DNA from: Hysterangium stoloniferum
Taxonomy: Eukaryota > Basidiomycota > Agaricomycetes > Hysterangiales > Hysterangiaceae
Assembly: GCA_015178975.1 (NCBI GenBank)
Contig: WHVD01000066.1
Location: forward strand, 372,001-436,000
Length of the DNA stretch: 64,000 nt
Direction: 5' to 3'
Shown: positions 13,830-53,530 of the stretch, one piece after another
How positions within the stretch are numbered: the stretch's first letter is position 1
Layout: each line of letters starts with the position of its first letter
Position numbers and translations under genes: made by a program
The notes under the pieces: model-generated
The model's input: the letters and a program-made list of their open reading frames with translations, nothing else
Told to the model about the DNA's origin: nothing
The model's database searches: none

Positions 13830-13893
13830 CCCAATGTTAACTTTGGGAATTTGGTAAACGAGCGGCAAGGACTCAGGGCTATTAGTAAGCAGG

Positions 13894-14697
13894 TGTTAGG
13901 ATACACACTCAGGCCGGGTTTCCGGAGAAACCCGCGGGATATCCGGTAGGACTTGGCTTCAGCTTATAGGCTGCGCCCTCGCTAGATCGTGTTGTCCAAT
14001 TTCAGACAGGCGGACGGGAATCCCGGGGAGTCCGGGCGGGGGTTCGTGGGTCGTGAGTCGTAGGTCGTGAGTCGAGAGTCGTGAGTCGAGATAGTCGAGA
14101 GAGATAGATGCGCCGGAGCCCGTGGGCTCCGACTAGTGCGAGCGGTCTGATGAGAGTAGGGTTTTAGAGAGGAAAATGTATTAGATTACTGGGGGGAATC
14201 TAAGCTAATTTTCTGACTGGATTGTATGTACAACATCTGCCAGTTTATATAGACCGTGGAATGCATGACATACCGAATCCAGTAATAATGAGACGAAACG
14301 AGCAAAACATAAAACGGGAATAGTAAACACCAAATTGGTGTTAGGAACGGGACGGAACGGAGCGGAGTCCGAATCGTGACAAAGCATAACCCATAACGGG
14401 AAACGGAGCGGGAGCGGAGTCCTAAATCGTGACAGGTCATTTGACTAAAATGGGAACGGGGCTCGATTAGAGCGGTGACGGGATTCTAAGCGGGTCCGGT
14501 GACTGATGCGTGGGACGAAGACGGACATAGACAGAGACGGGGTCCGGGGGAAGTCCGGTGACTGATATGTGTCTTAATGAGGTCGAACGTAACGAGTCTG
14601 GGTGGGAAATCCTATAAACAGACGATTGGTGCTTGTAGCGCGTGGGGGCGTACGAGTTAGTGCCCGGAGTCCGGCGGGATTTGTCCGGGTCGTAACA
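13894..14697 (-). repeat. 3' LTR of chromovirus copy 1 (804 bp)
   Basis: Read in element sense it begins TGTTACGACCCGG and ends GTGTATCCTAACA. It lacks a 16-bp segment present in the 5' LTR, at a site flanked by the direct repeat gagtc, consistent with slippage. The sense TATATAAACTGG box is retained. It differs from the 5' LTR only by C/T transitions at CpG sites. Confidence 0.95.
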
Positions 14698-14710
14698 GTA
14701 TCCTCCCTTT
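14698..14710 (-). other. Polypurine tract of copy 1
   Basis: Sense AAAGGGAGGATAC abuts the 3' LTR directly and would prime plus-strand DNA synthesis. Copy 2 has AAAGGGAGGGTAC at the same place and copy 3 has CAGGGGGGTAC. Confidence 0.75.
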
Positions 14711-14847
14711 ATGCCGAAGTCCCAAAGAGGCTCTAGACCTAAATAAGGTTCTTGTCGGCTACGCGCATGTGTCAAAAGTCATGTCGGTTACACGTATGTG
14801 TCAAAGAGTCATGTGATCTGGAAGGTAAGGTTCAAACGCGACGAGCC

Positions 14848-14855
14848 TATATAAA
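14848..14855 (+). promoter_or_regulatory. TATA box of the antisense gene in copy 1
   Basis: GCCTATATAAAAAATTG lies 60 nt before the antisense start codon, between the 3' LTR and the gene. Equivalent boxes precede the homologous gene in copy 2 (GCCTATATATAAATTTG), copy 3 (AGTATAAAAACC) and the 29.6-kb relic (GCCTATAAAAAAATTG), which argues for a dedicated promoter. Confidence 0.75.
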
Positions 14856-14907
14856 AAATTGAAAAAATAGAAATTTCTTCTTCTTTATTACCCCCATCTT
14901 CGTCACT

Positions 14908-15890
14908 ATGGGACCAAAACCAACACCACGCAAACCAATGCCGACAGCAGGGCCCTCCACGGGCACTCCGTATCGGGCGCCGTGGACGGCGGCCCAATTG
15001 TTGGCGCAGCGAGAAGAGCAGCACCAGCTTCGTGAAGCAGCAGAGAGAGAGGCGAGGGAGGCTGAGGAGGCCCTGGACAAGGAGTACCAGGAAGCATTGG
15101 CCGCGGAGGAAGAGGCCGCAAAGGAGAGGGAACGTGAGGCGGAGGAGGCTGCGCGAGTGGCCGCGGAGAACGCCCAGGTGGCTGCGGAGAAAGCCCGGTT
15201 GGCCGCGGAGAGGGCCGCCATTGTTGCGGGAAAAGTAAGTCCCAAATTCACTTGTCGATTTTTTACTGACTTGTGATTTTCAGCGCAAAGCGACAGAGGT
15301 GGAGTCCGAGTCCGAGGGGGAGCCAGAGAGCCCCCAAAAGGTAGGCCTCATGTCCATGGAATACCCGCAGAGACTGACCAACTCAACAGAAGGCAAGGAA
15401 GGCGGCGCCAGTCCGTCTTCCGACGCGGAACGAGCCGCGGTGTTCCGGTTGCAACGACCGGAACACGGAATGCAACCGAAAGGCCGGCTGGGGGCCGGGA
15501 TGTTATCAATGCGCGCACCTCAAGGCGAGGTGCTCGCTTGTGCACGAGCAGGCCACGGGATCCGGGGCGCGAGACATAAGCGGGACGGACGGGTTGTCCG
15601 GGTTGGACGAGGTCCTTGGACGGATCGCCGAGGGCATCGAGGCCCAAAACGAGTTGCTCCGGAAGAGCAACAAAGTCCAAATTGTGGTGGCAAAGGAGCT
15701 GTCCGGACTCCGCGAGGAGTTTTGGAAGTTCCTGGCGGAGTATGGCGGCTATGTCTTTGAAGAGCCGCAAGTCGGGAGTTCCGAGGATGCCGGATCGGAT
15801 GAGGACGGGGTTGCCGCGGAGGTCGCGGAGCTCCCAGAGGAGATAGCTGAGGAAGCAGGGAAAAAGAACAGTCCCATAAATGTAGACTGA
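14908..15890 (+). CDS. Antisense accessory protein: coiled coil, Zn2Cys6-like cluster, acidic tail
   Basis: Gene of unknown function carried by the retrotransposon on the strand opposite gag-pol, converging on the pol stop 210 bp away. Exons 14,908-15,234, 15,284-15,340 and 15,390-15,890 are joined by two 49-nt introns (GTAAGT..TTTCAG and GTAGGC..CAACAG) into 294 codons without a stop. Residues about 28-109 form an Ala/Glu/Arg-rich charged helix with VAAEKAR-type repeats. Exon 2 is acidic (EVESESEGEPESPQK). Residues 146-176 carry CSGCNDRNTEC and CYQCAHLKARC, giving C-x2-C-x6-C-x9-C-x2-C-x6-C, the spacing of fungal GAL4-type Zn2Cys6 clusters. A helical segment (LDEVLGRIAEGIEAQNELL) and an acidic end (SSEDAGSDEDG..) follow. 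Homologues at 34.7, 29.6 and 53.5 kb share exon structure and cysteines. DNA binding is inference; a structural role is possible. Confidence 0.8.
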
Positions 15891-16100
15891 AAAAGTAGTA
15901 TAGAATAAAAAATAATTTGAATTATAAAAGCAAAGCGTGAAAGAAAAACATAAAAATTAAAAGTCAAAGCCAAGGTCCGCGGGGAATCCGCTTAAAGACT
16001 TGACAAGACATGTCAGAACCTGTAAAAGCAAAGAGAGACATAGGGCGACAGGGAATAGTGAAAATGAGTCCAAACGTAACACGGGGTCCGCGGAGTGCGG

Positions 16101-19100
16101 TCAGAGAGACGATAATGGTCCAGGTTTGAGTGGGTAAGCTGTATGAAAGTCAGTAACAATTTCCGTGGCATTACTGAGTTCCGTGGCCAAAATCCATGAG
16201 GTTTCTTCATCGGTGCCCTCGTAACCCGCCCACTTGACCAAGTAAAGCAGTTTACAAGTGCGTCGACGCTTGTCAATTTTTGAATCTAAAATCTGAGAGA
16301 TTTCAAACTCGGGTTCTCCGTCAATGACGACAGGAGGAGGCGGAGATTGCACGCGATCCGGGATAGTGTTAGCAGTACAAGGTTCTAGCATAGAGACATG
16401 AAATACCGGGTGTACTGCGCGCATGCTATCCGGAAGCCGTAGAGTCCAAGAAACTGAACCTACTTGTGCGATAATTTCAAAAGGACCTAAATATTTTTCA
16501 GCAAGCTTCTTTGATGGACGGGTAGTCCGGAAGAATTGAGCTTTGACATAAACACGGTCGCCAATCTTGAAGTTTGGTGGCGGGATCCGGTGTTTGTCCA
16601 CTGAATGTTGGTATTGCTCTTGGGCGGACAATATTGCAGTCCGGAGTTCCTCGTGGAGCTCGTGGAGGTCCGTGGTGAACTCTTGAGCACGAACAGAGGC
16701 GAGATTTCGTTCTGGATGTACTGTAATATTTGGATTATATCCTTTATTTGCAAAGAACGGGGAAACGCCAGTAGTGGCCGAGGGTGCATTGTTGTAAGCA
16801 AATTCTGCAAGTGGTAACAAGGTTTTCCAATTGTCCTGTTGATAGTTGCAATATACGCGGAGGTATTGTTCCAATGTCTGGTTGACGCGTTCGGTTTGTC
16901 CGTCACCTTCCAGGTGATGTCCGGATGTGAAATGTAATGTCATGTCCAAGGATTTTCCGAGGGATCTAAAGAAGTGAGACACGAACTCTGATCCTCGATC
17001 GGAAGTCACGTGGGACGGAACTCCGTGCTTGGAAAATACGTGGATAATAAAAAGTTCCGCTAACTGCACGGACGTAATTGTATCATAAGTAGGGATGAAT
17101 ATACCTTGTTTTGAGAATCTGTCAACAACGACTAGGATAGCGGAAAAGCCTTCGGAATCCGGCAGGTGTTCAATGAAATCCATAGATATAGAATTCCACG
17201 GGTGTTCCGGTACCGGGAGTTGTTTCAAAAGGCCGTATGGCTTGTGTCGCTGAGATTTCGAGCGGGGACAAGTAGTGCAAGATTTACAATAGTGCTTAAC
17301 GAATCCACGGAGTCCGGGCCAAGTATATTCTCTTCTTATTAATGATAGAGTCTTGTTGTACCCGAAATGTCCTGAGAGTGGATGATCATGTTTGTATTGA
17401 AGGATCCTGAGGCGGAGGCCGTCGGAGTCCGGTACATAGATCCTATCGTCAAGTCTAATGAAACCATGTTGATCAAGAGACCACCGAGGTTGATCGGGGT
17501 CCACGGGATTGTCCAGATGAGCTTTAGTAACTGGGTCTAGCGGAATTGCCGATAGAATATCTTGATGTAGCTTTTCGATATCCATAATGATAATTCCACG
17601 GACAATGGGATTGACGAGGAAAGTTGCGCGGACCGATGCGGTAAGTTGTTGATTCGTGAAGATAGGTTTCAGGTTGTGCGGATTTACCGTTGCATAGTCG
17701 TTGCTCCCCTCTTTAGGATAGACGTCCCATCGTCTAGTTAAAGCGTCGGGTTTGCCGCCGAGACGGCCGGGTCGAAAACGGATAATCATGTTGAAGGCGG
17801 AGAGATATTCAGACCAGCGGGCCTGCCGACGGGTCAAGAGTTTTGTGGTAGAAAAGTATTCCAGGTTTTTGTGATCTGTTACAACGTCAATAGGAGCTCC
17901 TGAACCTTCCAAATAGTGTCGCCACGCTTTGAAAGCTGAAAAGATTGCCAGAAGTTCTTTATCATGAACGTCGTAGTTGAGCTCTGCTCCGGTAAAAGTC
18001 CGGGACAGAAAAGCCACGGGGTGAACTTCTCCGTCGGAGTCCTGGATAGAGAGAATGGCTCCAAGTGCATAGTCGGAGGCGTCCGTTTCAACAATGAGCG
18101 GGAAGTCCGGTTTCCAATGCGACAGAATAGGAGCTGTGGAAAAAGAATTTTTTAAAAGATTGAAAGCTTTTTGACACTTATCGTTAAAGTTCCACAGAGT
18201 ACCCTTACGCGTAAGACGGGTAAGGGGTACCGTGATGTCGGAATATCCACGGATAAAACGTCTATAAAAATTGGCAAAGCTGAGGAAGGATTGGATATCT
18301 TTAACTTTTCGGGGTTCAGGCCAGTCTTTGATGACTTGCACTTTAGTTTCGTCCATGCGGAGTCCATCGGGTCCCATCATGAAACCTAGGTATTCCACGG
18401 AGTCCGTGTCAAAAGTACATTTTTTACCATTTGCGAATAAACCATGTTGTCTGAGCCTCCGGAGAACCTCACGGACTTGTTTGTCGTGTTCCGCGGGATT
18501 CTCGGAGTAGATAAGAATGTCGTCCAAGTAAACAATGACGCATACATCGAGCATGTCGGAGAAAATGTCGTTGATAAAACGCTGAAAAACAGACGGGGCA
18601 TTAGTGAGTCCAAAAGGGATGACCAACCACTCGAAGGCCCCATAGCGGGTTCTAAAAGTGGTTTTCCATTCATCGCCCGCGGCAATCCGGACCAAATGAT
18701 AGGCATGCTTGAGATCTATTTTGGTGTAAATCCGGGCATTCCGCGGAGCATCGAGCAGGTCAGATATAAGTGGGAGTGGATATTTGTCCTTTTTGGTGAC
18801 AGCATTGAGTCCTCTAAAATCAACACATAGTCGAAGGGATCCATCCTTTTTTCTGACAAACAAAACAGGTGCTCCAAAAGGAGACTTTGAGGGTCGAATG
18901 AAACCTATGGACAAATGTTCATCCAGGAAATCACGGATTGCGGATAGTTCCGTGGACGAAAGCGGGTAAATATGTCCTAGGGGTGGCTGGGCGCCATCTT
19001 CAAGATCGATTTTTAAGTCGTATTCTCTGTGAGGCGGAAGCCGGTCAGCTTTTCGCTTGCTAAAAACATCCGCGAAGTCATGGTATTTCTCCGGGACGCC

Positions 19101-19958
19101 TTCTAGGTCAGCAGCTTGCTCAGATTCGGATACTGGGGTTGAGAAACGTCCAGTTGCTTCATCAATTTTTAAGTTGATAGTGAACGCCTGGGATCCATCC
19201 ATTTTTGAAGCCCTAATAAAAGCTGCAGCATTAATCAGAGAAATGGACGGAGGTGCCGTGGGTTCCGGGGAAGCTGTGGGTGCCGTAGGGATCACAGGAG
19301 TCCTCGAGACTGCAGGTGCCGGGAAGGCCATGGGTGCCGTGGAGGCCGAGACAGGCGCAGTTTCCTCGGTCGCCGCGGGAGTTCGGAATGTTATACTGTT
19401 AGCTATCCAGTCAATCAACGGATTGTAGCGGGTAAGCCAGTTATGTCCTAGAACCACCGAGCAACTTGAGTCTAACTGGGTCACATAGAAAGTGACCAAT
19501 TGAGATGTTCCACAAGGGAAACTGATGGGTAAATCACAAGCTTGGGTAACAACCAAATTACTTGTGCCATCGAAGAGGCGGAGAGCGACGGGATTTATCG
19601 AATAAGTTGACAAAGAATTTTTTTGCGTGAATTTTGTATCTAAAAAACAATGAGTCGAGCCGGAATCTATGAGAGCTGAAAAAACGAATTTCGGAAGCAT
19701 ATTAGACATAAGTTTAACGAAAAATGAATCAGAATGTGAAAGAGCGGATGCGTTGAGGCGAGTGAACTCTTGAATGCGCGGAGAGGCAACGCAACCCCTA
19801 ACCCGCGCGGAGTCCGCGGGGTTGCTTACTCTTTTTTCGAATCGGCAGCCGGTTTGTCCTTCGACGGGGTTTCCGTGGAGGCCTTGGCTGTTCGACCCTT
19901 TGAAGAGTTTGCTTTTGCCAGCGGACATTCCGGGACTCGATGACCGGGTTTCCCGCAC
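16101..19958 (-). CDS. pol: Chromovirus Pol polyprotein: protease, RT, RNase H, integrase, chromodomain
   Basis: Uninterrupted frame of 1285 codons counted from a non-ATG codon; the true product is reached from gag, whose end it overlaps in the -1 frame. Domains in order: retropepsin [13 protein letters not shown] (about residue 95); RT with [40 protein letters not shown] and VIVYLDDILIYSE; RNase H with IVETDASDYALGAILSI; integrase zinc finger HDHPLSGHFGYN..CKSCTTC; catalytic core with MDFIEHLPDSEGFSAILVVV (D), TSDRGSEFVS (D) and EGDGQTERVN (E); and a C-terminal chromodomain LLYLVKWAGYEGTDEETSWI, which in this group directs integration to chromatin marks. SGHHLEGDG has Leu where copies 2 and 3 have Pro. 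No stop or frameshift is seen, so it is potentially functional. Confidence 0.95.
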   Translation of the reverse strand: MRETRSSSPGMSAGKSKLFKGSNSQGLHGNPVEGQTGCRFEKRVSNPADSARVRGCVASPRIQEFTRLNASALSHSDSFFVKLMSNMLPKFVFSALIDSGSTHCFLDTKFTQKNSLSTYSINPVALRLFDGTSNLVVTQACDLPISFPCGTSQLVTFYVTQLDSSCSVVLGHNWLTRYNPLIDWIANSITFRTPAATEETAPVSASTAPMAFPAPAVSRTPVIPTAPTASPEPTAPPSISLINAAAFIRASKMDGSQAFTINLKIDEATGRFSTPVSESEQAADLEGVPEKYHDFADVFSKRKADRLPPHREYDLKIDLEDGAQPPLGHIYPLSSTELSAIRDFLDEHLSIGFIRPSKSPFGAPVLFVRKKDGSLRLCVDFRGLNAVTKKDKYPLPLISDLLDAPRNARIYTKIDLKHAYHLVRIAAGDEWKTTFRTRYGAFEWLVIPFGLTNAPSVFQRFINDIFSDMLDVCVIVYLDDILIYSENPAEHDKQVREVLRRLRQHGLFANGKKCTFDTDSVEYLGFMMGPDGLRMDETKVQVIKDWPEPRKVKDIQSFLSFANFYRRFIRGYSDITVPLTRLTRKGTLWNFNDKCQKAFNLLKNSFSTAPILSHWKPDFPLIVETDASDYALGAILSIQDSDGEVHPVAFLSRTFTGAELNYDVHDKELLAIFSAFKAWRHYLEGSGAPIDVVTDHKNLEYFSTTKLLTRRQARWSEYLSAFNMIIRFRPGRLGGKPDALTRRWDVYPKEGSNDYATVNPHNLKPIFTNQQLTASVRATFLVNPIVRGIIIMDIEKLHQDILSAIPLDPVTKAHLDNPVDPDQPRWSLDQHGFIRLDDRIYVPDSDGLRLRILQYKHDHPLSGHFGYNKTLSLIRREYTWPGLRGFVKHYCKSCTTCPRSKSQRHKPYGLLKQLPVPEHPWNSISMDFIEHLPDSEGFSAILVVVDRFSKQGIFIPTYDTITSVQLAELFIIHVFSKHGVPSHVTSDRGSEFVSHFFRSLGKSLDMTLHFTSGHHLEGDGQTERVNQTLEQYLRVYCNYQQDNWKTLLPLAEFAYNNAPSATTGVSPFFANKGYNPNITVHPERNLASVRAQEFTTDLHELHEELRTAILSAQEQYQHSVDKHRIPPPNFKIGDRVYVKAQFFRTTRPSKKLAEKYLGPFEIIAQVGSVSWTLRLPDSMRAVHPVFHVSMLEPCTANTIPDRVQSPPPPVVIDGEPEFEISQILDSKIDKRRRTCKLLYLVKWAGYEGTDEETSWILATELSNATEIVTDFHTAYPLKPGPLSSL

Positions 19959-21118
19959 AAGAGACAGAGGTTGTTGTCCATACGACGTTGTCTTTCTTGT
20001 GGAGTCAATTTGCCATCAGGTCCGAGTTTGCCTGAGAGGTCGGGTTTTCCGGCTTGCTTGCCGGACTGTTGACCCTTGTTGTTGTCCTTATTGTCCTTAT
20101 TGTTGTTGTTGTTGTTTGAAGACTTTTTATCGTTCTTCTTGTCGGATTGCGTGGAGTTCTGGTTGCTGGTTGACGAATTGGTGTTATTGTTTTTGTCCTT
20201 GGACTTATTTATTCTGTCCGCGGATGTCTCGCGGGCAACTTCCGCGCGACGTTCCCAATAACGTGCATCCGCGTTTTGAGCTTTGAGGCGCATACGGGAC
20301 AGGGTTTTTGGCTTGCCATCTTCTCCTTTTGAGACTTCGTCTTTAAGGCGGGACGGCAGACCGGCGTAGAATTGGTGGCGGAGAGCGGGATCGCCCCACT
20401 GACAACGAGCTGCAAGATTATTGAATTGGACGATGTAGTCCGTGATGCGCTGCGTGTCCTTCATACGAAGATTTGTGAGACTATTCTCGGCTTCTCCTGT
20501 CGGGTCATATGGGCCGAAGTTGGTTTCAAGCTCCTCAACAAAAGCTTCCCAATTTTCAAGCCAGAGCGGCTCTTCCTCGGTAATCCCGCTAAAAGCCGGT
20601 TCGAACCATTTCAACGCGGATCCCGACAAATATGAAAGTGTGTAGTTGACTTTTCGGGAGTCCGTGGAGAATGCAGCGGCGCGATCGCGGAAATTGAAGC
20701 GACATTGCATGAGGAAAGTAGAGAGTTTGTTTGGGTTGGAACCCGTGAAGGGTTCCGGAGCATTGACTTTTGACCGTGGAGGTTCTTGTTCCTTTCTTTT
20801 TCGTTCTTCTAGCAGGTGCGTCATGAATTTATCTATAGTACCTGCTAAAAACTCAGAAGTAGGATCCCTCGTGTTTGGTCGTTGAAAAGGCGGAGGATTT
20901 TCAGGAGGGATTTCGACACCTTTGCCCTTGTCGGGGGCCACGGAATCGTCCTCGCGCTCGGATTCGTCCAGGTCTTCCGGGATTTCTTCGATGCGGGCTT
21001 CTTCCATGGGTTCCGACTGGTTCGCAAGCGTCTGACTGGTATACAGAGTTAACGGGGAATGAAGAGTCGACGGTCCAGGCATTGATGACTGTGCGCGTGT
21101 ACTTCTTCTTGGTGGCAT
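19826..21118 (-). CDS. gag: Chromovirus Gag, 430 aa
   Basis: Capsid/nucleocapsid precursor that forms the virus-like particle and binds element RNA. It starts at ATG 21,118 (MPPRRSTRAQSSMPGPSTLH), 37 nt inside the internal region, and stays open for 430 codons. It has an acidic N-terminus, a Retrotrans_gag-type core (PEPFTGSNPNKLSTFLMQC.. LKWFEPAFSG.. WEAFVEELETNFGPYDPTGE), an Asn/Lys-rich linker, and one CCHC knuckle CLLCGKPGHRVPEC (C-x2-C-x4-H-x4-C). It ends SKKE-stop at a run of six A that overlaps pol in the -1 frame. Confidence 0.93.
   Translation of the reverse strand: MPPRRSTRAQSSMPGPSTLHSPLTLYTSQTLANQSEPMEEARIEEIPEDLDESEREDDSVAPDKGKGVEIPPENPPPFQRPNTRDPTSEFLAGTIDKFMTHLLEERKRKEQEPPRSKVNAPEPFTGSNPNKLSTFLMQCRFNFRDRAAAFSTDSRKVNYTLSYLSGSALKWFEPAFSGITEEEPLWLENWEAFVEELETNFGPYDPTGEAENSLTNLRMKDTQRITDYIVQFNNLAARCQWGDPALRHQFYAGLPSRLKDEVSKGEDGKPKTLSRMRLKAQNADARYWERRAEVARETSADRINKSKDKNNNTNSSTSNQNSTQSDKKNDKKSSNNNNNNKDNKDNNKGQQSGKQAGKPDLSGKLGPDGKLTPQERQRRMDNNLCLLCGKPGHRVPECPLAKANSSKGRTAKASTETPSKDKPAADSKKE
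19828..19845 (-). promoter_or_regulatory. Candidate gag-pol -1 frameshift site (or splice donor)
   Basis: The sense sequence TCG AAA AAA GAG TAA ends gag; a -1 slip on the A6 run continues into pol (GAA AAA AGA GTA AGC). The same bases contain GAGTAAGC, a good fungal 5' splice site, so splicing is the alternative. Copy 2 has A7 at this point and copy 3 has A5, with the flanking GAGTAAGCAACCC unchanged. Confidence 0.5.
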
Positions 21119-21141
21119 AATGAAAGCAATCTGCGAGTATT

Positions 21142-21152
21142 AGTCAGAAAAT
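21142..21152 (-). other. Primer-binding site for self-priming, copy 1
   Basis: Sense ATTTTCTGACT begins 2 nt after the 5' LTR end (TAACA-GT). It is the exact complement of AGTCAGAAAAT at 21,469-21,479 within the LTR, where the transcript should start. There is no tRNA-type TGG at the LTR edge. Confidence 0.8.
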
Positions 21153-21154
21153 AC

Positions 21155-21974
21155 TGTTAGGATACACACTCAGGCCGGGTTTCCGGAGAAACCCGCGGGA
21201 TATCCGGTAGGACTTGGCTTCAGCTTATAGGCTGCGCCCTCGCTAGATCGTGTTGTCCAATTTCAGACAGGCGGATGGGAATCCTGGGGAGTCCGGGCGG
21301 GGGTTCGTGGGTCGTGAGTCGTAGGTCGTGAGTCGAGAGTCGTGAGTCGAGATAGTCGAGAGAGATAGATGCGCCGGAGCCCGTGGGCTCCGACTAGTGC
21401 GAGCGGTCTGATGAGAGTAGGGTTTTAGAGAGGAAAATGTATTAGATTACTGGGGGGAATCTAAGCTAATTTTCTGACTGGATTGTATGTACAACATCTG
21501 CCAGTTTATATAGACCGTGGAATGCATGACATACCGAATCCAGTAATAATGAGACGAAACGAGCAAAACATAAAACGGGAATAGTAAACACCAAATTGGT
21601 GTTAGGAACGGGACGGAACGGAGCGGAGTCCGAATCGTGACAAAGCATAACCCATAACGGGAAACGGAGCGGGAGCGGAGTCCTAAATCGTGACAGGTCA
21701 TTTGACTAAAACGGGAACGGGGCTCGATTAGAGCGGTGACGGGATTCTAAGCGGGTCCGGTGACTGATGCGTGGGACGAAGACGGACATAGACAGAGACG
21801 GGGTCCGGGGGAAGTCCGGTGACTGATATGTGTCTTAATGAGGTCGAACGTAACGAGTCTTGACGTAACGGAGTCCGGGCGGGAAATCCTATAAACAGAT
21901 GATTGGTGCTTGTAGCGCGTGGGGGTGTACGAGTTAGTGCCCGGAGTCCGGCGGGATTTGTCCGGGTCGTAACA
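21155..21974 (-). repeat. 5' LTR of chromovirus copy 1 (820 bp)
   Basis: Promoter LTR. Sense order: TGTTACGACCCGG, a TATATAAACTGG box starting at 21,512, the predicted transcript start AGTCAGAAAAT at 21,479 (33 nt downstream), and near the end GGGCGCAGCCTATAAGCTGA, a motif shared with other LTR families in the window. It ends CCTAACA. Confidence 0.95.
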
Positions 21975-22173
21975 GCAGGTTACTAGGGTATATATGGATG
22001 AGACTTGTATTATAGTACTCATCCATTTACAACGAGTTAACTGTTACCTACTCAGACAAACGGAAAGTTATACGGTCTAAGAACAGCACCACTGAAAACT
22101 TAACATAAACGGATCACGGCTAGCTACCGTTAACCAAAGCTAGGTGCTGTGCAGACCACCTTTGATCTCGTCG

Positions 22174-24459: not shown

Positions 24460-24644
24460 TGTTAACTTTGGGAATTTGGTAAACGAGCGGCAAGGACTCA
24501 GGGCTATTAGTAAGCAGGTTACTAGGGTATATATGGATGAGACTTGTATTATAGTACTCATCCGTTTACAACGAGTTAACTGTTACCTGCTCAGACAAAT
24601 GGAAAGTTATACGGTCTAAGAACAGCGCCACTGAAAACTTAACA
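24460..24644 (+). repeat. Right LTR of element C (185 bp)
   Basis: TGTTAACTTTGGG to AAAACTTAACA, the same length as the reassembled left LTR and followed by the target duplication cccaa (24,645-24,649). Confidence 0.9.
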
Positions 24645-29644: not shown

Positions 29645-30644
29645 ATGGGCCCAAAACCAATGCCCAGATATCCAACCACCACCACTACAACACTTCCATG
29701 TGGTCCAAATACCAGGCCCCTCTCACAGCAATGTGAGGAGGCCATGAGAAAGGAAAAGGAGGAGGAGGAGGAGGAGAAGGTGTTGGAGAAGGAGTGCCAA
29801 GTGATGTTCGCCACAGAGAAAAAGGAGGAGGAGTGGAGGAAGAGGGAGGAAGAGGAGGCTGCCAAGAGAGAAGTGAAGGAGAAGGCGGAGGTCACCCAGA
29901 TTGTGGCAGAGTGAGCTCAGATACCCAGGATATCCACAAGAATGGTGAGTAAAACTTCTCTTTTTTGACAAGTCCTTATCAACTTCCATTTTAGTGCAAA
30001 GTGGTGGAGCTCAACTCAGAGTCCAAGGGGAAGCCTGGGACACTGCTTAATAATGTAAGTAGTAACTCCATGGGATCTCCAGTCACTGACAATATTCCAC
30101 AGTGGACAAAAAAGTTGCCTCCAGCCTGGCTGGAAACCAAAAATGATCCAGGGTACTTCAGTTGCACAGACCAGGGAGTATATTGCTTCCAGAAATGGGG
30201 TTGGGGCCCAAATGCTGGCCATGCTCTCATGTATATGTAAGGTTGTGCAGGAGGCCACAGGGGGTGGTAACTGGGAGGTCAGAGGGGCCATGAAAAGGCC
30301 CAGTGCCCTTGAAGAGGTTCTAGGGTGGATAGCAGCAGGCATAGATGCCCAAAATGTGCTGCTGGAGAAAGGAAACCAGGTCCAGAAGGTGATCATGGAG
30401 AATCTCTAAGAGCTCCACAGGGAGTTCCAGGAGTTCCTGGACAACTGTGCATGAGTTGTCCAGGAGGTGGATGAAGATTATGAGGGCATCAGAGAGTGGG
30501 GAATCCAAGGGGTCCAGGGACTCTAAAGGGTCTGGAGAGTCCATGGGGGCCAAGGAAGTACAGGAGTTGGTTAAAGAGAGGAAAGAGGATGCTAAATATG
30601 ACGCTATTGTAATAGACTATATCCTTTGTTTTCAAAATGTGTGA
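29645..30644 (+). pseudogene. Decayed antisense accessory gene of chromovirus relic 4
   Basis: Homologue of the antisense gene at 14,908. ATG 29,645 (MGPKPMPRYPTT), preceded by GCCTATAAAAAAATTG. An N-terminal charged helix (EEAMRKEKEEEEEEK..) ends at a stop near 29,912. Splice junctions GTGAGT..TTTTAG and GTAAGT..CCACAG are retained. The cysteine region persists (SCTDQGVYC, then CWPCSHVYVRLC after a 1-nt frame break), with the first cysteine lost. EEVLGWIAAGIDAQNVLLEK matches the post-zinc helix. Not translatable as it stands. Confidence 0.75.
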
Positions 30645-31736: not shown

Positions 31737-33338
31737 CAGTAGGCAACAAAACCCTTACAATGTTTTGTACTTTTTGAAAGACATGGCTATTCCTCCAGAA
31801 GTAAATTCTGTAAAATGCCGAAAGTATTATGTAATATACTTCAACATCATACCTTCCATAAATGCACAGCCACAAGGCACCACATCCTTATTTGGTAAGT
31901 CCACATCAGACACAAACCAATAGCTCATTGTAAGGGTTTTGTTGCACACATTTTTAAAGTTCAAAATGGGTCCTAGTTACATGACTTTGTTTATAAAGTT
32001 CAACAAAGTCATGTGACCACTCTTCCTCAATGTATATAAGATGAAAGCAACCAGTTGGAATCCCACAATCACCCTACTCACAATGAAAAAGCTCTCCTCC
32101 AGCCAAATCCAACATGTTCTTACTCTACTTGACTCTGGCATTTCTGGAGCTCAAATATGTTACCAAACTCATCTCAGCAGTGCCACCATCAGTTGTATTC
32201 GCTCTGAGCATCACCCTGACCTCCCCAAATGCTCTGGTGGCTGTCCTACAAAGCTTACCACAGCCAATATTGCCTATGCTAGAAGAATAATTTGCATGGG
32301 GAAGGTTGATAATGCCACACAGGCAACCAAGAAACTTATAGACATCATCAACACTCCTATTACTTCACAAACAGTGCATCGCCACCTCAAAACCATAGGC
32401 ATGAGGGCTGTGGTAAAGAGAAAAAGGCCACTTCTCAAACCTCATCATCAGAAATCTTGATTGGAGTTTGCAGAAAGGCATTTGGAATGGACCCTGGAGG
32501 ACTGGAAGAGGGTCATATGGTCTGATGAGACTAATATTAATAGTCTGGGATCAGATGGAAAGAAATATGTGTGGAAAAATGTGGGTGAGGAGTTAAATGA
32601 TAGGTTAGTAGAGGGAACAGTCAAGTTTGGAGGAGGAAACCTGATGATGTGGGGATGCATGGGCTGGGATGGGGTTGGGTTTGCAACCAAAATTGATGGG
32701 AGGATGGATGCTGAGCTTTATGTGGAGATCCTGGATGATGAACTCCAGCAAACCCTCAAATATTACAACAAAACAGTGGCTGACATTGTGTTTCAACAAG
32801 ACAATGATCCCAAACACACCAGCAAAAAAGCCCAGAAATGGTTCACTGACCATGATGTTACAGTCCTCAAGTGGCCTGCACAATCTCCTGACATGAATCC
32901 TATTGAACATCTGTGGAATCATGTCAAAAAGAAGCTGGGGGAGTATGAACAGCCTGCAAATAGTGCTCATGAACTATGGGAGAGGGTGCAGAAGGTGTGG
33001 GAAGAGATTCCAAAGGAGGAGTGTCAGAAGCTTATTGAGAGTATGCCTAGAAGACTTGCAGCAGTGATTAGAGCAAAGGGGGGCCATACTAAATACTAAT
33101 TTCTTGTAATAATAGTCTCAAAATAGTGTGCAACAAAACCCTTACAATGAGCTATTGGTTTGTGTGTGATGTGGACTTACCAAATAAGGACATGGTGCCT
33201 TGTGGCTGTGCATTTCTGGAAGGTATGATGTTGAAATATATTACATAATATTTTCAGCAATTTACAGAATTTATTTCTGGAGGAATAGCCATGTCTTTCA
33301 AAAAGGGCAAAACATTGTAAGGGTTTTGTTGCCTACTG
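31737..33338 (+). mobile_element. Tc1/mariner element with long inverted repeats (1602 bp)
   Basis: Bounded by TA (31,735-31,736; 33,339-33,340) with terminal inverted repeats of about 214 bp starting CAGTAGGCAACAAAACCCTT. Each repeat also carries, at its inner end, an inverted copy of the terminal motif (CATTGTAAGGGTTTTGTTGC). The repeats are highly similar, so the element is fairly young. It carries a Tc1 transposase. The left flank is chromovirus integrase, but the right flank is LTR sequence. Confidence 0.92.
32041..33099 (+). pseudogene. Tc1-type DD34E transposase with one in-frame stop
   Basis: Cut-and-paste transposase. ATG 32,041 opens one frame to 33,099 (352 codons) broken only by TGA at 32,458-32,460. 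The N-terminal helix-turn-helix pair (SSSQIQHVLTLLDSGISGAQ.. GGCPTKLTTANIAYARRI) is followed by the catalytic triad: VIWSDETN (D), VFQQDNDPKHTS (D) and SPDMNPIEHLW (E) with 34 residues between the second D and E. It ends RRLAAVIRAKGGHTKY. The premature TGA fits a CGA-to-TGA change. The protein could be restored only by readthrough or mutation, so this copy is probably non-autonomous. Confidence 0.9.
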
Positions 33339-34716: not shown

Positions 34717-35830
34717 ATGTCGATTCATCAGCCTCTATTCATTACTACCCCGGAAGATTCAGATACCGAAATTGCCGTTCTACAAAAAATGTCGAAGGTC
34801 GCAGAACTTCAACAAAAACAACAAAGGATGGAGGAGTTGAAGTGACGACAGGAGGAGGAGGAAAAGGCATTGATGCAGGAGTTGAAAGATGCGGAAGAGG
34901 CAGAAAAACGGGAGTTGGAGCGGGCGAAGGCAGAAAAAGAAGCGCAGATCCAGAAAATGGCGGAGGCTCAGAAACAGAAGGAAGAGGCGAAAAAACGTGA
35001 GGAAATAAGGGAAGGAAAGGTAAGTGAAATCCATAAATTTCCATGGTTCCAACCGATAACTATTGGGTACAGTGAAAAGCCGTGGAGGTTGAGGTAGAGG
35101 GAGAGGCTGGACCTTCGAGTCCTAAAGTAAGTGCATCTACAAAAGGCCGGTAATTGACTAACTTCTGAAACAGAAGCCAAAGGTCAAGGCTCCGGAATGG
35201 ATGGAAGTGGTCCATGAAAATCCGTGTTATCGATGTTCCATACGGAGTATGACGTGTTGGAAACAGAAGGTAAAATGGGGTGGAACTTGCTATCCCTGCG
35301 CGGTTCTTAAACTTCTGTGCACTCTCGCCTCGAAAAGGGTTCCAAAAGGAGAGAAGCCTCAGAAAACTAATGATGTGGAAGGTTCGGGAGTGGCCAAAAT
35401 TGTGGAAACTGAGGTACCGAAAATGGATAGTACGGGCATGGAGCTCCTCAAGGACACCGTCGACGCATTAGTCTTTATTGGGACGGAAGTTATGAAAATG
35501 TGAGATACACTAGATCGCCATAATGAGATCCAGGAAAAAGGTTTCCATTCGTTGATTCAAAACTTCCAGAGGCAAAACAAATTCCTGGAGAAGGTAATGG
35601 TTAGCATCGGTGTTATCGCAGTTTCCGAGAGGTTTTCCGATAAGGCACGGGAACAGCCTAATGATCCATTGGTGGAATGTGTCGAGAAAAGGTGGGATTC
35701 AGGAAATGGGCCGGAAGTATTAGAGAGTGAGGATGAAGAGGTGCAGGATATGGTGGAAAGTGCGGAAGTTGCTGATGAGATGGAAGTCGGGATGGAAGGT
35801 GGATTTGGGGTATCAGAGACTTTAAAATAG
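34717..35830 (+). pseudogene. Antisense accessory gene of copy 3 (three premature TGA codons)
   Basis: Exons 34,717-35,019, 35,073-35,126 and 35,174-35,830 correspond one-to-one with copy 1 (introns 53 and 47 nt; GTAAGT donors). The frame is 337 codons, with TGA at 34,843, 35,073 and about 35,501; the first two fall where an Arg is expected and all three are explained by CGA-to-TGA. It has an N-terminal charged helix (ELKDAEEAEKRELERAKAEK), then CYRCSIRSMTC and CYPCAVLKLLC, giving C-x2-C-x6-C-x10-C-x2-C-x6-C, and an acidic tail (ESEDEEVQDMVESAEVADE). Sequence identity to copy 1 is low outside the cysteines and flanking KAPEW-type segment, showing the architecture is older than either subfamily. 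Confidence 0.8.
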
Positions 35831-52455: not shown

Positions 52456-53530
52456 TTATTCTTCATCTACATTGATGGGGCTATCTTTTTTCCCCGCCTC
52501 TTTTTCCACCTCAGCCTTTCCCACCTCATTCATCTCCTCAGGTAGCTCCGCGACCTCCACGGGCACCTCCTCCTCATCTGAACCGGCCTCCTTGGAACTC
52601 CTGTCCTCTGGCTTGTCATATACAAAGCCGGCATACTCCATCAGGAATTTGAAGTGGTCCCCACGGATTGCATGGAGATCATTCACCATAATGACGCTGA
52701 CTTTGTTGCTCTTCTGGAGCAACTCGTTTTGGGCTTCAATGCCCTTGGTGATCTGTCCCAAGGCTTCCTCCAGACCGGAGTACTCATCCGACCCGCCATT
52801 CTCCCGTGAACCGGACCCCACGGCCTGCTCATGAACGAGTGAGCACCTCGCCTTGAGGTGCGCGCACTGGTAACACCCCGGGCCCCGGCTGGACTTCCAA
52901 TTGCACTCAGTGTTCTGGTCATTACAACCGGAACACCACAGGTCATTCCAAGCCGGTAGGCAGGCTGGTGCCGCCTTCCTTGCTTTCTGTTGATACAGTT
53001 AGCTCCACGGTATACCCATGGACCCGAGACTCACCTTGTTGGGGCTTTCTGGCTCCCCCTCGGACTCAGACTCGACTTCCGCCACCTTGCGCTGAAAATG
53101 CCAAGTCAAAAAAAAAGCGACAAGTTGATCTATGGGACTTACCTTTCCTGCAACAACCCCAGCTCTGTCCATGGCCACCCAGGCTTTCTCTGCTGCCACC
53201 CAGGCTTTCTCTGCTGCCACCCAGGCTTTCTGCTGCCACCCAGGCTTTCTCTGCTGCCACCCTGGCCTTCTCTGCAGCCACCCGTGCAGCCTCCTCCTCC
53301 TCCCTCTGCTTCTGCCTCACAGCCTCTTCCTCTGCAGCCACGGCTGCCTGGTATTCCCTATTCAGGGCCTTCTTGACCTCCCGGGCTTCTCGCTCCACCT
53401 CTTCTCACTGTCGATGTTGCTCATCCCGCTGCACCAAGATTTGGGCAGCAGACAGCGGTGCCCAGTACTGACTGCCCATCGAGGGCCTGGCGGTTGGCAT
53501 AGGCTTGCACGGCATGGGCTTTAGTCCCAT
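52456..53530 (-). pseudogene. Antisense accessory gene of copy 2 (near-complete)
   Basis: Exons 53,530-53,143, 53,091-53,035 and 52,986-52,456 match copy 1, with GTAAGT..TTTCAG and GTGAGT..CAACAG introns. Preceded by GCCTATATATAAATTTG. Exon 1 has one TGA (CGA in origin) and a 2-bp loss in the GTGGCAGCAGAGAAAGCCTG repeats that shifts frame. Exon 3 is fully open: CSGCNDQNTEC and CYQCAHLKARC preserve all six cysteines with the same spacing, followed by GLEEALGQITKGIEAQNELL and the acidic end. Confidence 0.8.

Follow-up and report, generated by a model that had tools for sequence, protein, structure and literature searches.

The window analyzed here, a stretch of 64,000 nucleotides from the genome of Hysterangium stoloniferum (Agaricomycetes, Phallomycetidae), holds a complete chromovirus of the Ty3/Gypsy type, copy 1, at 13894-21974 on the minus strand (Table 1). 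A GCAGG duplication flanks the element (13889-13893 and 21975-21979), and its two long terminal repeats (LTRs) differ by six transitions and no transversions over 804 columns (K2P 0.0075), with a single 16-base length difference (16 gap columns). The Pfam domains of its pol are PF08284, PF00078, PF17917, PF17921, PF00665 and PF00385. A 25-mer across the polypurine tract recurs at 600 places in the genome with up to three mismatches, and the reversed control at none. The window also contains an element-free duplicate of the insertion site (24460-24639), in which 24460-24519 equals the left flank of copy 1 (13835-13894) at 100% and 24513-24639 the right flank (from 21974) at 97%. At 32461-33099 on the plus strand lies an open reading frame that by eye resembles a Tc1/mariner-type DDE transposase.

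Table 1. Positions, in window coordinates, of the chromovirus copy 1, its antisense gene and the homologues of that gene
Feature	Positions	Strand	Remarks
3' LTR of copy 1	13894-14697	-	804 bases; repeat with 21155-21974
Polypurine tract AAAGGGAGGATAC	14698-14710	-	adjoins the 3' LTR of copy 1
Conserved upstream region of antisense gene	14714-14907	+	non-coding, from polypurine tract to ATG
TATA-like TATATAAA	14848-14855	+	60 nt upstream of ATG
Exon 1	14908-15234	+	proline-rich start, then A/E/R/K/Q-rich segment; ATG kept in 90/94 copies
Intron 1	15235-15283	+	49 nt; GTAAGT...TCAG; branch-like CTGAC by eye; GT in 93/94, AG in 92/94
Exon 2	15284-15340	+	acidic/serine stretch flanked by two basic clusters
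Intron 2	15341-15389	+	49 nt; GTAGGC...ACAG; GT in at least 91/94, ACAG in 93/94
Exon 3	15390-15890	+	cysteine cluster (codons 15441 to 15533), long helix, acidic tail, C-terminal KKNSPINVD
AATAAA 3' of stop codon	15904-15909	+	in those columns in 18/94 copies, i.e., poorly conserved
pol	16101-19958	-	1285 aa; Pfam domains of protease, RT, RNase H, integrase, chromodomain
gag	19826-21118	-	430 aa; Retrotrans_gag PF03732 E 6e-14; Ty3_capsid PF19259 E 3e-8
5' LTR of copy 1	21155-21974	-	820 bases
Homologue in window copy 2	29645-30439	+	degenerate; span from ATG to last tblastn match
Family B homologue in window copy 3	34717-35830	+	three exons arranged alike; contains stop codons
Family A homologue in window copy 4	52465-53530	-	degenerate

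A gene on the opposite strand (14908-15890) takes up most of the interval that separates pol from the 3' LTR; its three exons amount to 885 nt including the stop codon and encode 294 residues. The junction at its intron 1 is also present in the predicted protein P0002. The basic clusters, KRK...KKARK, span the border between exons 2 and 3 and by eye resemble a bipartite nuclear localization signal.

The host genome was scanned for further copies over 111 Mb in 554 contigs. In the family of copy 1, termed family A, a 25-mer of the cysteine region matches 231 places, and the gene search returned at least 204 matches (133 of 2129 candidates scored). The family A alignment comprises 94 copies, namely window copies 1 and 4 plus 92 loci (98 fetched, six duplicates removed); these loci were picked through gene matches, the best plus a spread of diverged ones, so that the sample is non-random and gene-less elements are not counted. 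Both introns retain GT-AG in 89 of the 94 copies, and the six cysteines are kept in 94, 93, 94, 93, 93 and 94 of them, in order. With intact copies defined by the ATG, both introns and at least 270 residues, 41 are intact and encode 29 distinct proteins. The median terminal branch is 0.003 for intact and 0.074 for broken copies, a contrast to be expected between recent insertions and old, decayed copies. The occurrence of identical proteins among copies and the LTRs of copy 1, differing at 6 of 804 sites, indicate that the element moved recently. The C-terminal end of exon 3 is conserved in family A, mostly as KKxSPI[NE][VI]D. One locus, L009, matches residues 1-294 within one 339-residue open frame free of stops, introns included; under the splicing model it has a stop after 188 residues.

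The earlier note had also reported homologues in the three other copies in the window, one of them in a different LTR subfamily, and all three were recovered, each in degenerate form. Window copy 3 represents family B; the LTR-like stretch ahead of its gene shares about 70% identity with the counterpart in copy 1 across roughly 480 bases, and the introns of the gene lie at 35020-35072 and 35127-35173. A search with the cysteine exon of this family gave 150 matches (150 of 764 candidates scored). The 11 aligned rows, window copy 3 and ten fetched copies, share as far as they reach the order of TATA box, ATG, two introns of 47-54 nt, cysteine exon and acidic tail, with TATAAAA at a near-equivalent place upstream. 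GT-AG borders are present in 10 of the 11 rows for intron 1 and likewise for intron 2; rows L099 and L101 have no homologous start, and L103 and L105 diverge before the end. No intact gene was found among these 11 rows; the nine with a start are all interrupted by a stop within exon 1 or 2. The exon-3 identity between the families is 25-31%, and that of family B to the window exon 3 is 25-29%. Across the 24 rows of an exon-3 alignment, three cysteines never vary, the other three are kept in at least 90%, and the lysine that precedes the sixth cysteine by three residues is invariant as well. Two chromovirus families of H. stoloniferum carry the antisense gene as an accessory gene.

Selection on the reading frame was evident at several levels. 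Column entropy by codon position in the family A gene was 0.31, 0.29 and 0.68 (0.21, 0.16 and 0.56 without CpG sites). Among 38 distinct intact family A coding sequences, the median pairwise dN/dS was 0.16 at dS below 0.03, 0.30 at 0.03-0.08, 0.46 at 0.08-0.15, 0.19 at 0.15-0.3, 0.20 at 0.3-0.6 and 0.21 at 0.6-2. The comparison of L034 with the window copy (dN 0.126, dS 0.114) falls within the 0.08-0.15 bin; this locus, one of the 41 intact copies, begins at a contig end and was dropped from the frame control only, being retained in the pairwise dN/dS of the gene and of the pol C-terminus and in the upstream CpG counts. For family B, with exon 3 only, dN/dS was 0.15-0.43 in 36 pairs (nine of the ten fetched copies). 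The pol C-terminus gave about 0.12 in 40 intact family A copies; at about 0.2, the antisense gene is therefore constrained, but less than pol. In the frame control, which used 36 deep pairs, exon 1 had a dN/dS of 0.23, and the five alternative frames, for exons 1 and 3, had medians of 1.07-1.91, except for the complementary frame that shares third positions (0.36 in exon 1 and 0.27 in exon 3), which is closed by stops in exon 1 of 25 and in exon 3 of 93 of the 94 copies. Indels relative to the window copy, which are non-independent events, were multiples of three in 75 of 119 cases in exons, 6 of 239 in introns and 50 of 312 in flanks; in intact copies alone, the exon count was 8 of 14.

These comparisons give good support to a predicted antisense gene of three exons, borne by the retrotransposon and under purifying selection. 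The dN/dS check that the earlier note had proposed across intact copies in related genomes was run within the host genome and yielded about 0.2 in families A and B. Together with the conserved ATG, splice sites and cysteines, it confirms the intact three-exon gene that the note had placed antisense between pol and the 3' LTR. We consider it about certain that this is a real protein gene; as read from the aligned copies, the data show a selected gene with two conserved introns in that position. As a separate observation, the synonymous distance to the window copy was larger for the antisense gene than for the pol C-terminus, by 1.1 to 3.9 times, in seven of seven copies (L074, L042, L040, L096, L097, L091 and L092), as if the antisense gene mutates faster or has another history.

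The region upstream of the gene has a median identity of 95.4% at 14714-14844 and of 94.7% at 14845-14907, compared with 93.9% for the pol C-terminus, 88.2% for part of the LTR and 87.5% for the spacer between gene and pol (medians of best local matches covering more than 70% of the query, in 49-56 of the 59 loci L039-L097). The TATA region is conserved to the same degree as the pol C-terminus and stands outside the LTR. The variant TATATAAA occurs in 67 of the 94 family A copies and TATATATA in 17, and a 29-mer from the TATA block was found at 327 places in the genome, its reversed control at none. Further upstream, a 27-nt direct repeat (14750-14776 and 14779-14805; 85% alike, 29-nt spacing) holds a CGG in each unit. 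A CGG operator was sought there, but CpGs within the CGG repeats are kept no better than neighboring CpGs, and no comparable repeat of at least 10 nt was present in the family B upstream region. The ten upstream CpGs are kept in 54-74% of the 94 copies versus 85-95% of the 41 intact ones, a pattern that fits CpG decay after insertion and perhaps reflects host methylation. In copy 1, TCCGG/CCGGA reaches 2.5-4 times its frequency in dinucleotide shuffles (11-12 versus 3 in the LTRs, 26 versus 9 in pol, 9 versus 3.6 in the antisense gene), weakly so in gag (6 versus 4), with no excess in five other stretches of the window. As an LTR operator, TCCGG fares poorly, being enriched in pol and the gene too and showing no excess in the family B LTR region.

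In the predicted protein, A, E, R, K and Q make up 82% of residues 28-109, followed by a basic-acidic-basic segment and then by six cysteines at residues 146, 149, 156, 166, 169 and 176 (C-x2-C-x6-C-x9-C-x2-C-x6-C). Hydrophobic residues occupy 61% of the a/d positions in residues 190-250 versus 21% elsewhere (best of seven registers). The AlphaFold model, which used the 24-sequence alignment (mean pLDDT 58.8, pTM 0.25), places exon-3 residues 67-123, 3' of the cysteine cluster, in one long helix with a pLDDT of about 88; the tail after the helix is acidic, with a net charge of -10, and is modeled at low confidence. The fold of the cysteine region, which the earlier note had wished to see compared with PF00172, was modeled, but at low confidence (block means of 46-62 pLDDT). 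Many fungal Zn2Cys6 (GAL4-type) regulators have basic surroundings, a helix after the cluster and an acidic segment, and the antisense protein resembles them in these features as well as in cysteine spacing. Judged by its layout, with the cysteine spacing, basic segment, long helix and acidic tail, it would suit a dimeric nuclear DNA-binding regulator.

The cysteine pattern of PF00172 is C-x2-C-x6-C-x5-12-C-x2-C-x6-8-C, and the antisense protein matches this spacing with a central x9 in family A and x10 in family B; of the copies examined, 5 of 79 in family A and 3 of 9 in family B depart from the six-cysteine pattern. None of the 21 distinct copies scanned (18 of family A, three of family B) reached the gathering cut-off of 21 bits, and full membership in PF00172 is rejected. 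At E <= 1, Zn_clus matched 10 of the 21, each scanned as an exon-3 protein longer than the shuffles described below, with scores of 20.8 (L053), 16.2 (L058), 15.3 (L060), 13.9 (L067 and L049), 12 (L072), 11.6 (L065) and 10.7 bits (L091, L070 and L097). Of ten cysteine-keeping shuffles of L053 and L058, two also matched, with 12.6 and 11.6 bits, and only the first two or three real scores lie clearly above them. As evidence of kinship, the matches are weakened, since most are at the level of the shuffles, which were scanned at a shorter length (61 residues).

In all ten matches, the half-clusters align in exchanged order, eight with the first half on the end of the profile and two with the second half on its start. 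The halves of L053 scanned apart took the same exchanged registers; the window copy, L106 and window copy 3, treated in the same way, yielded no Zn_clus match for either half. The two shuffle matches comprised one exchanged and one in normal order, so the exchanged order is suggestive only. In the PROSITE database, the N-terminal half of the cluster is described by [GASTPV]-C-x2-C-[RKHSTACW]-x2-[RKHQ]-x2-C. None of the 74 family A or 6 family B copies carries this signature on the first half of the cluster; on the second half it occurs in 59 of the 74 and in 5 of the 6, versus 4-8% of cysteine-keeping shuffles. An exchange of half-clusters relative to the GAL4 fold may be suggested by these alignments, but no more firmly than that. 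The term "Zn2Cys6-like" from the earlier note is supported by the spacing and by the retention of the cysteines in families A and B, and a cluster of this kind is likely; the protein differs from PF00172 in scoring below the family cut-off in every copy scanned and in having matches with exchanged halves.

Three protein searches, which required shared 5-residue words, returned no homologues outside the host and no Botrytis protein; one of them scored 8000 candidates, and distant relatives in other mushrooms could escape such searches. Among solved structures only weak matches appeared, a talin helix at E 0.034 being the best. In the literature, no antisense six-cysteine gene in a retrotransposon was recognized among the matches listed for open-access papers, in the portions available; most subscription papers and all bioRxiv preprints fall outside this scope. 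The statement in the earlier note that no element with this architecture was known stands in this restricted sense for the cysteine layout, but antisense genes occur in the same place in plant elements and, as brtn, in a fungal one.

In plants, an antisense aORF-3R lies between pol and the 3' LTR, and its function is described in the available text as unknown for years (PMC7264820). Antisense additional ORFs include gene23 of Grande and those of RIRE2, Retand (TRP28) and PvRetro13 (PMC7264820, PMC11963269, in excerpts). According to the same excerpts, Grande combines its own promoter with a nuclear protein (PMC7264820), and DNA binding is predicted for the product of the Retand gene (PMC11963269). 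A six-cysteine cluster is not mentioned in the accessible accounts of plant aORF-3R (PMC7264820, PMC11963269), and the main text of the Retand study contains neither "zinc finger" nor "intron" (PMC11963269). The H. stoloniferum gene occupies the position that characterizes aORF-3R and, like the plant genes as excerpted, is antisense and kept in many copies, here among those picked through gene matches in families A and B; it differs in host kingdom and in its cysteine cluster, the plant products having TRP28, SMC or unknown domains as far as described. Transcription from a promoter of its own has been shown for the Grande gene, according to the available text; the candidate promoter here is the conserved TATA region.

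Among fungi, brtn was reportedly described by Zhao et al. in 2011 in Boty-like retrotransposons of Botrytis cinerea. Boty is characterized, in the parts of the sources available, as carrying gag-pol, a chromodomain and, in antisense orientation, an extra gene, brtn (PMC8365987, PMC4227169, PMC5987419, PMC7264820). Neither "antisense" nor "zinc" occurs in the accessible main text of a survey of fungal LTR elements (PMC3248453). Compared by description alone, and that in part, Boty resembles the present element as a fungal chromodomain element with an extra antisense gene, but its host is an ascomycete. Outside retrotransposons, HBZ, a bZIP protein, and APH-2 are spliced products with a dimerizing helix and an acidic activation region. 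HBZ of HTLV-1 and APH-2 of HTLV-2 are antisense and nuclear (PMC11963269), and the HTLV antisense promoter lies within the 3' LTR (PMC7264820), according to the excerpts available. The antisense orientation is shared, and no homology is claimed; unlike HBZ, the protein here has a cysteine cluster, and the promoter-like region is outside the LTR.

The best single reading is that the gene encodes a nuclear DNA-binding regulator of the element, and on the predicted layout we would give it about an even chance. RNA polymerase II would transcribe the gene from an internal promoter in the TATA region, the mRNA would be spliced and the protein would enter the nucleus. There, the six cysteines would fold around two zinc ions, and the helix after the cluster would mediate dimerization. 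The dimer could bind element DNA at the LTR, at its own upstream region or at both, and the acidic tail would contact the transcription machinery, thereby tuning expression of the element. The introns would persist because the gene is antisense, as the reverse-transcribed sense RNA carries no splice signals for them and new DNA copies keep them. A stronger version is doubtful: a zinc-cluster regulator made by the retroelement, with GAL4 half-clusters exchanged, antisense, obligately spliced and under its own promoter, could form an HBZ-like circuit of independent origin within a fungal retrotransposon, and introns could persist in its gene only because of the orientation.

Several other explanations draw on the same evidence. 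It is possible, although not probable, that the protein acts on nucleic acid in the replication cycle, either in nuclear entry of the particle or pre-integration complex or in targeting of the chromodomain integrase. Its basic segment and zinc-type cysteines would suit any nucleic-acid binding, the gene sits beside gag-pol in two families, and a similar function has been suggested for plant antisense genes (PMC7264820, as excerpted); however, an upstream TATA region of its own and the introns imply that it is not made within Gag-Pol, and the acidic tail would better suit a regulator. On origin rather than function, the gene may be a captured fragment of a fungal zinc-cluster gene, homologous to host GAL4-type factors, which would be compatible with several functions. 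We consider this rather unlikely: the cysteine spacing and the L053 score just short of the PF00172 cut-off (20.8 versus 21) speak for it, but the protein searches found no host or other fungal homologue, and the halves align in exchanged order. It is improbable that the protein limits copy number or counteracts host silencing of the element, for instance through protection of LTR chromatin; the better retention of upstream CpGs in intact copies agrees with it, but the sequence indicates no silencing partner.

The remaining explanations dispense with the protein. The product could be the antisense RNA, acting in double-stranded RNA control, a role that has been considered for transcripts of this kind (PMC7264820, in the available text), but the purifying selection acting on the protein sequence in both families and the frame-keeping indels make it very improbable here. 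A purely RNA-based role is rejected by dN/dS, indel phase and the frame control, and RNA and protein roles can coexist. A chance open frame with accidental splice-like signals has a negligible probability, nothing having been found in its favor, and is ruled out by the same three lines of evidence in addition to the conserved ATG, splice sites and cysteines.

The nuclear regulator reading makes a specific prediction from the protein layout, namely zinc, a dimer and DNA. In H. stoloniferum, the gene offers an aORF-3R case with a conserved upstream region, conserved introns and selection in two families, and the recent movement of the element means that the system may be testable. Furthermore, it shows a route by which an element that copies itself through RNA can carry an intron-bearing gene.
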